From an uncultured bacterium (GTDB lineage: Bacteria > Verrucomicrobiota > Lentisphaeria > Oligosphaerales > Oligosphaeraceae), in assembly GCA_902783355.1 (NCBI GenBank), contig CACZQQ010000169.1, positions 1-6,395 on the forward strand: a stretch of 6,395 bases of DNA. Reading direction: 5' to 3'. The first letter of the stretch is position 1; the number at the start of each line of letters is the position of its first letter. The notes under the pieces were generated by a model that saw only the letters and a list, made by a program, of their open reading frames with translations, searched no databases and was not told the origin of the DNA. The position numbers were made by a program, and so were the translations under genes. Shown here one piece after another: positions 3,047-6,395 of this stretch.

Positions 3047-3376
3047 CTAGAGCATTGCGGCCGAAGGGATGTATTTCTTGATGAAGGCGAAGCGGTCTGT
3101 CTCCTTGGTCAGCTCCTCGTAGCGGATGCAACCCAGTTCATACTCCGCCTGCAGCCCAAGCCAAAATTGCGCGGTCGTTCCAAAGAACCGCGACAGACGC
3201 ATCGCCGTGTCGGCGGTGACGGCGCGCTTGCCCAATACGATCTCGTTGATCCGGCGCGGCGGCACGCCAATCTCACGCGCCAGGCGGTTCTGCGACATGC
3301 CCAGCGGCTCCAGAAACTCGGCCAGCAGAACCTCGCCAGGATGGACCGGCGGCAGATATTTGTCTTCGTTAGCCAT
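3047..3376 (-). CDS. higA: HigA family antitoxin, XRE-type DNA-binding protein
   Basis: The 109-residue protein is a typical HigA antitoxin: the N-terminal LPPVHPGEVLLAEFLEPLG (8-26) precedes a Cro/CI-type helix-turn-helix (about 27-65; MSQNRLAREIGVPPRRINEI) and the conserved TTAQFWLGLQAEYEL (67-81). It should neutralise HigB and repress the operon through its helix-turn-helix. The ATG at 3376 is chosen because AAGGGGG (3391-3385 on the minus strand) sits 8 nt upstream; a TTG at 3394 is possible but would absorb this site. It follows higB by 14 nt, the usual toxin-first order of higBA. Its stop lies 3 nt from the stop of the convergent TIM-barrel gene with no terminator between. The cassette is less GC-rich than its neighbours, suggesting acquisition by transfer. 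Confidence 0.93.
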   Translation of the reverse strand: MANEDKYLPPVHPGEVLLAEFLEPLGMSQNRLAREIGVPPRRINEIVLGKRAVTADTAMRLSRFFGTTAQFWLGLQAEYELGCIRYEELTKETDRFAFIKKYIPSAAML

Positions 3377-3390
3377 GATTGCAACCCCCT

Positions 3391-3666
3391 TCAATGGTAA
3401 TCCTCTATTTTGACATTATCAGCCCCGTCGTTCCATGAAAATGTGACACGCCATTGGTCATTGATGCGAATGCTGTAGAAGCCTTGCCGTCCCTCCAATG
3501 CTTCAAAGTGATTGCCTGGCGGCTTGCGCAAATCTTCAGGCGCGGTAGCGTTGTTTACCATTTTCAGTTTTCTTCGGGCACCTACCTGTATGTTCTCTGG
3601 CAACTTGCGTGAGCACTCGCCGATGTAAATCTTCTGGGTCTCTTTGTCAGCAAAATTCTTGATCAT
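3391..3666 (-). CDS. higB: HigB toxin, RelE-superfamily mRNA interferase
   Basis: The 91-residue protein matches the HigB family in length and landmarks: MIKNFADKETQKIY at the start, LRKPPGNHFEALEGR (46-60), and the C-terminal DQWRVTFSWNDGADNVKIED followed by YH. In Proteus vulgaris HigB the catalytic residues are His54, Asp90, Tyr91 and His92; the equivalents here, H53, D89, Y90 and H91, are all present, as is the WR(V/I)TF core, so the toxin looks intact. The family cleaves mRNA on the translating ribosome and slows growth. It is first in the higBA operon, transcribed from the promoter at 3708-3735. Codon use is more A/T-rich than in the flanking genes. Confidence 0.93.
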   Translation of the reverse strand: MIKNFADKETQKIYIGECSRKLPENIQVGARRKLKMVNNATAPEDLRKPPGNHFEALEGRQGFYSIRINDQWRVTFSWNDGADNVKIEDYH

Positions 3667-3707
3667 TTTAACAAAACGGTGTGATGTTGTGGATTGGCGT
3701 CTTGCAT

Positions 3708-3735
3708 ACTATAACGCGGCGCATTATTATTGCAA
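3708..3735 (-). promoter_or_regulatory. higBA promoter
   Basis: Read on the minus strand, TTGCAA (3735-3730) and TATAGT (3713-3708) form a -35/-10 pair with 16-bp spacing, about 40 nt upstream of the higB ATG. A run of seven A on this strand (3755-3749) lies in the position of an UP element. The promoter encloses the palindrome at 3711-3727. Confidence 0.55.
3711..3727. promoter_or_regulatory. Candidate HigA operator palindrome
   Basis: ATAACGCGGCGCATTAT is a 17-bp palindrome around a central G with a single mismatched pair (C3715/A3723). It fills the space between the -35 and -10 boxes of higBA, where binding would block RNA polymerase. Autorepression by HigA is established for the family; this particular site is inferred. 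A second, wider inverted repeat, CTTGCA (3701-3706) and TGCAAG (3731-3736), brackets it. Confidence 0.5.
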
Positions 3736-3858
3736 GGGCCCTGCGCACTTTTTTTCGTCGCCGCTATGCGAAACGCCATTGCGCCATTATCTTATCTGCA
3801 ATCCTCACAGGGCGTGGGGGTCCAAGTCTGACAACATCCGGCAACCAAGGAGAAGAGA

Positions 3859-4227
3859 ATGGCCTGTTTTGCTGTACCGGTGGCGGAAGCCGTCGTGACG
3901 ACGATTGTGCAGAAGGTGCTTGCCAAGAAGGAGCAGTCCTCCAAGGCGAAGAATCCGTTTTCGCGCAAGTTGCAGTGGCTGAACAACATGCTGTGGGGCG
4001 GCTCCGCCCTGCTGGCCTTCGAGCACGTCTGGCACGGGGAGGTCGTGCCGTGGTTCCCCTTCCTGACGGCCGCGGAGAGCCCGGAAAGCACCTCCGAAAT
4101 GCTGCACGAGATGTCGACGGTCGGCGTCACGATGGCCGCCCTGGTCACCGTCGTCTGGCTGGCGATGGTCGCCGTGTCCAGCCTGATCGAGAAGCGCGCG
4201 CAGGCCTCCATGGCCGCGCAGGAATAG
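3859..4227 (+). CDS. Small membrane protein of the lar operon, paralogue A
   Basis: I do not recognise the family of this 122-residue protein. It has an N-terminal amphipathic or hydrophobic helix starting MACFAVPVAEAVVTTIVQKV (1-20), a basic linker (22-37), a membrane helix around 39-58 (LNNMLWGGSALLAFEHVWHG), an acidic loop (61-84) and a second membrane helix around 86-109. Potential metal- or heme-binding residues are C3, E55, H56, H59 and H83. The start is fixed by AAGGAG 6 nt upstream. It is the first gene of a tight + operon: the next ATG follows the stop by 13 nt, then larB and larC. Residues 46-105 align by eye with residues 36-88 of the next protein, so the pair look like diverged tandem paralogues that may form a heteromer. 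A role in nickel handling or in the function of an NPN enzyme is inference from context only. Confidence 0.88.
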   Translation: MACFAVPVAEAVVTTIVQKVLAKKEQSSKAKNPFSRKLQWLNNMLWGGSALLAFEHVWHGEVVPWFPFLTAAESPESTSEMLHEMSTVGVTMAALVTVVWLAMVAVSSLIEKRAQASMAAQE

Positions 4228-4240
4228 ACAGGAGGCTGCC

Positions 4241-4558
4241 ATGACCCTGCTCATCACCGTCTTCGCCGCCGTCATCAGCACCATCGTCTGGTACCAGAGC
4301 ACCTCCCGCAGGGAGATGAAGCTGGGCGCCCTCAGCTTGATGTACTGGGGCGCCTCCCTCATGTGGTTCGTGGACGCCATCTTCGAGTACGCGGAACTGC
4401 ACGAGGCGTATTTCACGCCGTCGGCGGCGGACATGCTGAACGATTCCTACCTCGGCCTCTCCGTGGTGGCCTTGGGCCTCGTCATCTGGCTGGCCGTCCT
4501 GCTGGTCAAGGACCCGAAGGGCGTCCTGAAGTCGGCGCTGTGCCCGAAGGCGAACTGA
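4241..4558 (+). CDS. Small membrane protein of the lar operon, paralogue B
   Basis: This unrecognised 105-residue protein has three predicted membrane helices: 1-18 (TLLITVFAAVISTIVWY), 27-47 (KLGALSLMYWGASLMWFVDAI within it) and 70-89 (YLGLSVVALGLVIWLAVLLV). The loop between the last two is acidic (E49, E52, E55, D64, D68) with H54. A perfect AGGAGG (4230-4235) lies 5 nt before the ATG. Compared with the preceding protein it shares WG-x-S at 36-39, an acidic residue nine positions after the Trp (D45 versus E55), DML at 64-66 (EML there), and a last helix with S, G, AL and WLA in register. larB starts 7 nt after its stop, so the two are certainly co-transcribed. The function is unknown. Confidence 0.88.
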   Translation: MTLLITVFAAVISTIVWYQSTSRREMKLGALSLMYWGASLMWFVDAIFEYAELHEAYFTPSAADMLNDSYLGLSVVALGLVIWLAVLLVKDPKGVLKSALCPKAN

Positions 4559-4565
4559 CCCTTGG

Positions 4566-5321
4566 ATGAAGACGGAGGTCAAAACCCTTCTGGAATCCGT
4601 CCGCGACGGTAGCCTCTCCGTGGAGGAGGCGCTGCTGCGCCTGAAGGCGGCGCCCTACGAAGACCTCGGCTATGCGAAGGTCGACCTTCACCGCGGCATC
4701 CGCCAGGGCGCCCATGAAGTCATCTACGGCGCGGGCAAGACCGTCGCGCAGATCGCCGGCATCGTCGAGGCCATGCGCCGCCACGGGCAGGAGCGCATTC
4801 TCGTCACGCGGCTCTCGCCGCAGGCGGCGCAGGAGCTGTCGGGCCAATGCCCCCTCGCCTATCATGAGACGGCCCGCCTCGGCGTCGTCGGCGGGATGCC
4901 CGAGCCCGACGGCATCGGCACCATCGTCGTCGCGACAGGCGGCACAAGCGACCTGCCCGTGGCGGAGGAGGCGGCCGTCACCGCCGAGTTCTACGGCAAC
5001 GCGACCGTGCGCCTGTATGACGTCGGCGTCGCGGGCCTGCACCGCCTTCTCTCCCACAAGGAGGAGCTGATGGCGGCGACCGTCGTCATCGCCATCGCGG
5101 GCATGGAAGGCGCCTTGGCGAGCGTGATCGGCGGCCTCGTAGACTGCCCCGTGGTCGCCGTCCCGACCAGCGTCGGCTACGGCGCCTCCTTCCAGGGGCT
5201 CTCCGCCCTGCTCTCCATGCTGAACTCCTGCGCCAGCGGCGTCTCCGTCGTGAACATCGACAACGGCTTCGGCGCAGGCTATCTGGCCAGCCGCATCAAC
5301 CATATCGAGGCGAAGAAATGA
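4566..5321 (+). CDS. larB: LarB, NaAD carboxylase/hydrolase of nickel-pincer cofactor synthesis
   Basis: LarB carboxylates the pyridinium ring of nicotinic acid adenine dinucleotide and hydrolyses it to pyridinium-3,5-biscarboxylic acid mononucleotide, the first step of nickel-pincer nucleotide synthesis in the cytoplasm. The 251-residue length fits the family. Its N-terminal helical region (1-45) is followed by the PurE-like domain with ATGGTSDLPVAEEA (123-136), AGMEGALASVIGGL (178-191), AVPTSVGYGASFQGL (198-212) and LLSMLNSCASGV (215-226). C222 corresponds to the cysteine (Cys221 in L. plantarum) that forms a covalent adduct with the substrate. No good Shine-Dalgarno precedes the ATG; with only 7 nt after the previous stop, translation may depend on coupling. 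The stop overlaps the larC start as ATGA. Confidence 0.97.
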   Translation: MKTEVKTLLESVRDGSLSVEEALLRLKAAPYEDLGYAKVDLHRGIRQGAHEVIYGAGKTVAQIAGIVEAMRRHGQERILVTRLSPQAAQELSGQCPLAYHETARLGVVGGMPEPDGIGTIVVATGGTSDLPVAEEAAVTAEFYGNATVRLYDVGVAGLHRLLSHKEELMAATVVIAIAGMEGALASVIGGLVDCPVVAVPTSVGYGASFQGLSALLSMLNSCASGVSVVNIDNGFGAGYLASRINHIEAKK

Positions 5322-6395
5322 GGACGTTGTATCTGGACTGCGGCATGGGCGCGGCCGGCGACATGCTGACCGCCGCCCTGCTGGAACTCTTCCCGAATCC
5401 CGATGCGCAGGTCGACGCGCTCAACGCCATCGGCATCCCGAAGGTCACCTTCAGGCGGGAGAACGCCATGAAATGCGGCATCGGCGGCACCCGTGTCATC
5501 GTCGACGTGGACGGCGAGGTCGAAGGCGACGAGACGCACCATCACCACCATGAGCACGAGCATGACCACGAACACGCTCATGAACATCACCACGAACACG
5601 GCCACCACCACAGCTCCATGCACGACATCGAGCATCTCGTCATGGACCATCTGGCGCTGCCGGAGGCCGTCAGGCAGGACGTCATGGCGGTCTACAGGCT
5701 GATCGCGGAGGCGGAGAGCCAAGTCCACCAGAAGCCCGTCACGGAAATCCACTTCCACGAGGTAGGGACATTGGACGCGCTGGCGGACATTGCGGCGGTT
5801 TGTCTTCTTATGCGGCAACTCTCTCCTGCGCAAGTAGTTGCGTCATCCATTCATGTCGGTTGCGGCCAAGTGCGCTGCGCCCACGGCATCCTGCCCGTGC
5901 CGGCCCCCGCGACCGCTCTCCTCCTACAGGGCGTCCCCATCTACGGCGGCGCCATCCAAGGCGAGCTTTGCACGCCCACGGGCGCCGCGCTGCTGCGCCA
6001 TTTCGCGACCCGCTTCGGCGAAATGCCGCCCATGCGCGTTGAGGCCATCGGCTACGGCATGGGGACGAAGGACTTCCCCGCCGCGAACTGCCTGCGCGCC
6101 CTGCTCGGAGAGACGGAGGAGGAACCGGAGAGCGTCCTACGGCTGTCGTGCAACGTCGACGACATGACGGCGGAGGAGCTCGGCTTCGCGATGGAGCGGC
6201 TGCTGGCGGAGGGCGCGCTGGACGTCTATACGGTTCCCATCGGCATGAAGAAGAGCCGCCCGGGCACGCTCTTCAGCGTGATTTGCCGCCCGTCGGACAG
6301 GGAGAGGATGGTGCAGGCCATCTTCCGCTTCACCTCCACCATCGGCCTCCGGGAGGAGACGCTGCGCCGCCATGTCCTGAAGCGCGAGACCGCCG
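5318..6395 (+). CDS. larC: LarC, nickel insertion protein of NPN cofactor synthesis (partial, runs off window)
   Basis: LarC is the CTP-dependent enzyme that inserts nickel into pyridinium-3,5-bisthiocarboxylic acid mononucleotide to complete the NPN cofactor. The open frame runs 359 codons to the window end without a stop. It starts at an ATGA overlap with larB, with GAGG (5307-5310) 7 nt upstream. Landmarks are LDCGMGAAGDM (6-16), HFHEVGTLDALADIAA (145-160), HGILPVPAPATALLL (189-203), ELCTPTGAALL (216-226), then the LarC2 part with CNVDDMTAEELG (278-289) and IGMKKSRPGT (308-317). A His-rich insert at 74-98 has 17 His in 25 residues. In L. plantarum the two halves are joined by programmed frameshifting; here residues about 265-275 read straight through. 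Codons 161-181 are unusually A/T-ending. larE, needed in the same pathway, is not in the window and may lie downstream. Confidence 0.97.
   Translation, partial: MRTLYLDCGMGAAGDMLTAALLELFPNPDAQVDALNAIGIPKVTFRRENAMKCGIGGTRVIVDVDGEVEGDETHHHHHEHEHDHEHAHEHHHEHGHHHSSMHDIEHLVMDHLALPEAVRQDVMAVYRLIAEAESQVHQKPVTEIHFHEVGTLDALADIAAVCLLMRQLSPAQVVASSIHVGCGQVRCAHGILPVPAPATALLLQGVPIYGGAIQGELCTPTGAALLRHFATRFGEMPPMRVEAIGYGMGTKDFPAANCLRALLGETEEEPESVLRLSCNVDDMTAEELGFAMERLLAEGALDVYTVPIGMKKSRPGTLFSVICRPSDRERMVQAIFRFTSTIGLREETLRRHVLKRETA

Follow-up and report, generated by a model that had tools for sequence, protein, structure and literature searches.

Two small membrane proteins encoded directly upstream of larB and larC, here called A and B, probably belong to a new nickel-uptake protein family, as judged from their genomic context and sequence. 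The pair is a concrete and testable candidate importer with thousands of relatives, and an excerpt of a nickel-use survey counts 62 bacteria that have nickel-dependent proteins but no known or candidate nickel transporter (PMC2667541).

The A-B-larB-larC operon

The window, i.e., the whole stretch of 6,395 nt that was analysed, contains the following genes:

3859-4227, + strand: gene A, a 122-aa membrane protein, heading the operon
4241-4558, + strand: gene B, a 105-aa membrane protein
4566-5321, + strand: larB, NPN cofactor biosynthesis (NCBIfam NF033503, 284 bits, E 5.7e-85)
5318-6395, + strand: larC, nickel insertion in NPN biosynthesis, running off the window (PF01969, E 5e-122; TIGR00299; NF052512)

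Coordinates, lengths, spacings and the single operon described in the initial annotation were all recovered when re-derived from the window sequence, with gaps of 13 nt between A and B and 7 nt between B and larB, and with ATGA as the overlap of larB and larC. The identifications of LarB and LarC are certain, both being borne out by NCBIfam (for LarC, TIGR00299 at E 1.3e-61 and LarC2 at E 6.6e-34) and that of LarC also by Pfam. Neither a promoter-like site on the + strand nor a terminator was found at window positions 3600-4620, where two promoter-like sites lie on the - strand, and positions 3640-3870 contained no inverted repeats. Positions 3047-3666 (- strand) encode a toxin-antitoxin-like pair, one protein with a helix-turn-helix and one that is HigB-like; both are divergent from the A-B operon and lie outside the A-B-larBC unit. 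Positions 1-316 are occupied by tandem repeats with a period of 62, present in 5.1 copies with 79% matches.

Family status and relatedness of A and B

Both proteins had been described as unplaced in any family, and this was confirmed by Pfam and NCBIfam searches with A and B and by Pfam searches with 50 A and 51 B relatives. A and B matched no family in either library, A having one Pfam match and B one NCBIfam match below threshold only, and the matches of the relatives were scattered, each occurring in at most 7 members. The Lar_N domain of the LarA superfamily (PF09861) was found neither in A or B nor in these relatives, while the succinate dehydrogenase membrane anchor (PF01127) matched a single one of the 50 A relatives, no better than E 0.068, and none of the 51 B relatives. 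Sequence searches of the PDB returned nothing up to E 1 for A and four matches at E 0.5-0.7 for B, and searches of the non-viral fold libraries (with VIA-align for B only) brought up no solved fold clearly like A or B. No paper whose title or abstract describes the A-B pair or the leader discussed below was found in searches of open-licence PMC text. A and B are real and widespread genes: among the 8000 matches listed for each, at least 7995 relatives of A and at least 7972 relatives of B pass E 0.01, many of the named ones coming from gut and rumen anaerobes.

The two genes travel together. A adjoins B in all 80 of the first loci, which are the genome loci of the best matches to B, and in 28 of the 31 loci of a second set drawn evenly from one class; in two of the remaining loci (L143, L149) A lies two genes upstream of B, and in L151 no A was found nearby.

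A and B also look related over their length, as had been proposed from an alignment made by eye. BLASTP aligned them at E 2e-6, and their Smith-Waterman score of 79, compared to shuffled means of 29-38, was equalled in at most 0.05% of 2000 shuffles. Comparison of the full profiles (238 and 239 rows) gave a P of 2.4e-5, with 0.17 and 0.22 for reversed profiles, and an hhalign probability of 50% (21% with query and target swapped; 60% in another run), the result being weaker with shallower profiles (probability 4%, P 0.0097). BLASTP and hhalign both align W46/W36, G47/G37, EML/DML, G89/G72 and W100/W83, and both place E84 of A opposite D68 of B. The proposed E55/D45 pair, however, appears in neither: BLASTP inserts a gap there and hhalign pairs E55 with E49 of B, so that this register is obtained only if helix 2 is read gapless by eye.

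Predicted topology and invariant residues

The structure models and the conserved positions are as follows, each protein being numbered from its first residue:

3859-4227, + strand: model of A, helices 2-25, 34-58, 67-71 and 75-121 (pLDDT 81; pTM 0.54, weak)
4241-4558, + strand: model of B, helices 2-19, 28-58, 62-90 and 95-100 (pLDDT 94, pTM 0.81)
3859-3867, + strand: N-terminal Met-Ala-Cys of A, with Ala in 235 and Gly in 2 rows at position 2 and Cys3 in 237/237 rows reaching the N-terminus (238 rows in total)
4021-4041, + strand: E55-H56-x-x-H59-G-E61 of A, candidate ligands for a metal at the outward-facing end of helix 2 (E55 238/238, H56 237/238, H59 237/237, E61 237/237)
4108-4110, + strand: E84 of A (237/237)
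4361-4375, + strand: M41-W42-x-x-D45 of B (each of M41, W42 and D45 239/239)
4442-4444, + strand: D68 of B (238/239)

These counts come from an alignment made without any filter on Cys3, in which L182 and L184 were dropped as the same places as L163 and L070, and L065 is incomplete and has no N-terminus; the sample is uneven, some rows coming from one genome (L007/L134, L051/L137) and 120 being the database proteins closest to the window.

B was modelled confidently with three long helices, and helix 2 of A is weakly hydrophobic. The mean numbers of lysine plus arginine (238 A/239 B rows) are 7.9/2.6 in loop 1, 0.2/0.7 in loop 2 and 3.1/5.0 in the C-terminal tail, and loop 2 is acidic in both proteins. 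By the positive-inside rule, we infer that the N-terminus and loop 2 of each protein are outside and the K/R-rich loop 1 inside. G89 and W100 of A are also invariant (237/237 each), and among the columns of A conserved at 95% Cys3 is the only cysteine. As residue 2 is small, Met1 is likely to be removed, which would leave NH2-Ala-Cys. Among the three histidines H56, H59 and H83 that had been singled out for a possible redox role, H56 and H59 are conserved and H83 varies. The divergent, hydrogenase-linked copies of L163, L202 and L203 keep Met-[Ala/Gly]-Cys, E55, H56, H59, E61 and E84.

Genomic context of the pair

Physical linkage of the pair to lar genes is frequent but not general. In a neighbour screen that covered nickel genes within 6.5 kb, 63 of the first 80 loci had a lar gene, one had hyp genes (Treponema, L070) and 16 had neither; among the 31 class-draw loci, 13 had a lar gene, one had hydrogenase genes and 17 had neither lar nor hyp/Ech genes. 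Lar and hyp genes never occurred in one locus in the first 80 loci and the class-draw screen. Under the refuting condition named in the initial annotation, that the pair be common away from lar genes, a strictly lar-specific module fails and a nickel-linked one stands. LarB was over the cut-off in 14 of 22 genomes, which comprise 21 with lar genes absent or only partial near A-B and the genome of L002, which has lar.

Four genomes link the pair to hydrogenase maturation. In G092, represented by a 2.56-Mb contig of a 2.6-Mb genome, no LarB was found; A-B is followed after 92 nt by genes for Proton_antipo_M, NADHdh, 20-kDa, 30-kDa and 49-kDa/[NiFe] subunits and then a ferredoxin-type protein, and the series continues with HypA, HypF, HypC, HypD and, taken as HypE from its position, a protein of the AIRS type. 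Both RICGIC and DPCISC are present in the large subunit, and the downstream genes amount to an Ech-type hydrogenase and its maturation set. The Treponema genome G020 (L070/L184), in which neither LarB nor LarC was found, encodes HypB (by Pfam) and HypA (PF01155) at a distance of 1.2 to 2.3 kb past B, a single gene intervening, and in G566 and G612 (L202 and L203), which are apparently related to each other and in which no LarB was found, a divergent A-B adjoins HypA and HypB (HypA of L202 called by Pfam, the other Hyp proteins of L202/L203 by phmmer). The pair is therefore linked to independent nickel pathways, lar in 63/80 and 13/31 loci and hyp/Ech in these four genomes, and since nickel is what lar and hyp/Ech have in common, we set a role in nickel supply above an NPN-specific one. 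At L043, L051/L137 and L200 (G508), LarC adjoins A-B and LarB was not found over the cut-off in the genome, which reflects either incomplete assemblies or a LarC acting without NPN synthesis. When neighbours were clustered, 17 of the 111 loci had an ABC ATPase of one cluster, its place differing from locus to locus, and no ATPase was seen to accompany the pair regularly.

Other neighbours recur. A DUF3842-like gene lies just upstream of A-B in L005, L008, L009, L011, L013-L016, L018, L019, L060, L069, L071, L079, L136 and others, the L079 copy being PF12953; the term DUF3842 was not found in a literature search of open-licence PMC text. An aldo/keto reductase is encoded near the pair in L073, L074, L076, L078, L144-L146, L149, L150 and L161, that of L076 having a C-terminal 4Fe-4S domain, and a permease is found near loci with DUF362 and A-B (L068, L139, L141, L142, L157-L159, L161 and L181, the last copy being ArsP_1, PF03773).

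Co-occurrence with nickel genes

Presence was scored in 243 genomes of one class, where B was found in 30, LarB in 101, LarA in 78 (E 1e-8), CbiM in 72 and HypA in 50; the p-values given here ignore kinship, and the genomes are related, so the tests are not independent. All 30 genomes with B have LarB or HypA, compared to 90 of the 213 without B (p 8e-11, kinship ignored), and LarB itself is present in 26/30 and 75/213, respectively. HypA alone is not associated with B (6/30 with B, 44/213 without), and within the genomes lacking LarB it is present in 4/4 with B and 15/138 without (p 2e-4, kinship ignored). A second set comprised 11 genomes with B in which LarB was not found; three of these belong to the class draw by B, G014 is in both sets, and G508 and G590 are outside the set. 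HypA was over the cut-off in 9 of the 11, the exceptions being G015 and G021 (assemblies of 1.3 and 1.6 Mb). Where B and LarB occur together, HypA exceeded the cut-off in one of 9 hand-picked genomes and in 2 of 26 in the class draw.

The importer component CbiM, which serves cobalt as well, shows the opposite pattern, with 2/30 genomes with B and 70/213 without B encoding it, and 2/26 against 49/75 when only LarB-positive genomes are counted (p 2e-7, kinship ignored). LarA was present in 5/26 LarB-positive genomes with B and 30/75 without (p 0.06, kinship ignored), leaving 21 of the 26 without LarA at E 1e-8. LarB or HypA is present in 120 genomes, of which 36 lack both B and CbiM, the known or putative importers scored here, hence other importers exist.

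A leader RNA upstream of A

Octamers common to the regions upstream of A led to a leader of approximately 135 nt, consisting of two hairpins followed by a helix whose 3' strand doubles as the 5' strand of a terminator, and a T run. With a covariance model built from 15 leaders, the first 80 loci gave 25 matches at E < 1e-5, and 48 further sources gave L135, L136 and L199 as well as L134 and L137, which repeat loci already counted; L071 (E 0.002) was excluded. Thirteen of the resulting 28 members were outside model building. Every one of the 28 shares its strand with A and stops 11-90 nt short of the start of A (for example 5400-5531 in L004, 5363-5509 in L051 and 3165-3307 in L079). For 8 of them, no lar gene was present within 6.5 kb (L001, L006, L007, L010, L030, L038, L055 and L135). 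By the covariance model, no leader was found in the window or in the Hyp/Ech loci.

In the 28-row alignment, which was fitted to a model containing the second hairpin and the terminator, the terminator version has 90.0% of cells paired and two-sided changes at 25 of its 29 pairs, and the alternative version 86.7% of cells paired and two-sided changes at 16 of its 19. For both versions, none of 500 shuffles reached the score and all slides were far lower; the first hairpin is weakest (71% of cells paired), and GAAG recurs in the leader loops. By this covariation the leader is a predicted transcription attenuator, and we would guess that it responds to a metal, in which case it would add a possible new metal-responsive RNA. 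NikR-like operators with 2 mismatches were present in 2 of 117 stretches upstream of A (L139, L141), and at gathering level Rfam found one unrelated sRNA, in L014, in the window and 12 loci.

Proposed function and alternative explanations

The initial annotation had offered three candidate roles for the pair: nickel entry, a membrane anchor for an NPN enzyme, and a redox partner. Nickel entry is the best supported of the three, and the other two lose ground because the pair occurs in genomes that have hydrogenase maturation genes but yielded no LarB and because H83 varies.

The alternative that survives best, though we regard it as unlikely, is that A-B acts as membrane partner to an NPN enzyme other than LarA, most likely a DUF362 protein, and serves electron transfer or docking and not nickel entry. 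Nine of the 31 class-draw loci (L139, L141, L142, L146, L153, L157, L158, L159 and L161) have a DUF362 gene immediately upstream of the pair, and one adjoins it in the Spirochaetota locus L181; of the 18 DUF362-like ORFs at A-B loci, 17 have the pattern H-x3-G-[FY]-x2-x(1,2)-K, a similar stretch is present in the LarA ORFs of L084 and L085, and LarA is lacking at E 1e-8 from 21 of the 26 genomes with B and LarB. NPN synthesis is cytoplasmic, however, while several of the DUF362 proteins beside A-B look exported by eye. Moreover, most screened loci have no DUF362 within 6.5 kb, G054 and G083 have DUF362-A-B and HypA with no LarB, and there is no DUF362 at the Ech, HypA and HypB loci; it is these Ech and Hyp contexts that lower the partnership with DUF362. 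A passage of PMC11770544, on the other hand, places DUF362 and the LarA domain in one Pfam clan, CL0471. The DUF362 proteins beside A-B, several of which have a hydrophobic N-terminal segment (seen by eye) and one of which (L159) has a Cu_amine_oxidN1 domain, are, with their H-x3-G-[FY]-GG-x2-K stretch that resembles one in LarA, candidates for non-LarA NPN proteins, possibly exported.

Less likely still, the pair could export or buffer nickel, in efflux or tolerance, or be a membrane metal sensor beside nickel users. The same contexts would suit any role in nickel homeostasis, and the invariant histidine and acidic residues would suit metal binding in general, but operons with cofactor and hydrogenase assembly genes, as well as the negative association with the importer CbiM, suit supply better than removal. 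That the substrate is another metal, cobalt or divalent metals broadly, with nickel users among those served, is the least likely explanation: a passage of PMC7689651 gives both Co(II) and Ni(II) for CbiMNQO, but those recurrent neighbours of A-B that emerged from clustering and could be tied to a metal, in a screen directed at nickel genes, are nickel genes.

Under nickel uptake, the reading we prefer, A and B would assemble into a membrane complex importing nickel on behalf of its neighbours, LarC (for the NPN cofactor) in the window and [NiFe]-hydrogenase in other genomes. Removal of Met1 from A would make the free Ala amine, the Cys amide and the Cys thiolate available for Ni2+, which would be gripped at the outer face together with H56, H59, E55, E61 and E84 of A and D45 and D68 of B and would pass between the two related halves. 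As for the driving force, we assume either secondary transport or a facilitated entry after which LarC or HypA/HypB would trap the ion. A fuller proposal, which we put forward tentatively as possible rather than probable, is that of a new metal importer class made of two paralogous three-helix proteins, with no ATPase and with an outward N-terminal Ala-Cys nickel hook, which in many Firmicutes is switched by a new attenuating RNA sensing nickel or a nickel product. If true, this would supply the missing nickel importer for a large share of gut anaerobes. The pair also gives a handle on NPN-making genomes without LarA, which make up about 15% of genomes in one analysis according to an excerpt of PMC11796402; the 21 of 26 genomes above are of this kind.

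Comparison with known systems

The ECF-type Ni/Co importers CbiMNQO and NikMNQO resemble the proposed system in that membrane metal uptake is linked to nickel users, and CbiM/NikM also use N-terminal residues as metal ligands. In contrast to these importers, A-B consists of just two small proteins, is rarely found together with CbiM in genomes and, among the clustered neighbours, showed neither a T component nor an ATPase in a constant position. The earlier statement that the LarMNQO/CbiMNQO type looks different from A-B agrees with this, as CbiM/NikM (PF01891) gave no match up to E 1 in A and B or up to E 0.1 in the 50 A and 51 B relatives.

NiCoT proteins perform membrane nickel transport without an ATPase, and NiCoT, UreH and HupE/UreJ are larger single proteins, whereas A-B consists of two different subunits. 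No Pfam match to the NiCoT, HupE or UreH families was found in A, B or the 50 A and 51 B relatives. The NiCo riboswitch, which we take to be RF02683, is an RNA that regulates metal transport genes in Firmicutes; it was not found by Rfam in the window, 12 loci or the leaders, and the A-B leader differs from it in matching no Rfam family beyond chance. The likeness of A-B to UreH and HupE/UreJ, as these appear in an excerpt of PMC2667541, is one of membrane nickel transport without an ATPase.

Ni superoxide dismutase (NiSOD), according to a passage of PMC5722923, binds Ni via His1, Cys2, Cys6 and amine/amide nitrogens. Provided that Met1 is removed, A would share with it a cysteine as second residue of the mature protein, adjoining a free amine. 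A has no His1 and no conserved second cysteine corresponding to Cys6, and NiSOD is a soluble enzyme, so the resemblance would be one of ligand pattern only and not of membership. In conclusion, the protein family, size, two-paralogue make-up and leader of A-B match nothing in the libraries searched, and the activity proposed for the pair, nickel import, is of a known kind.
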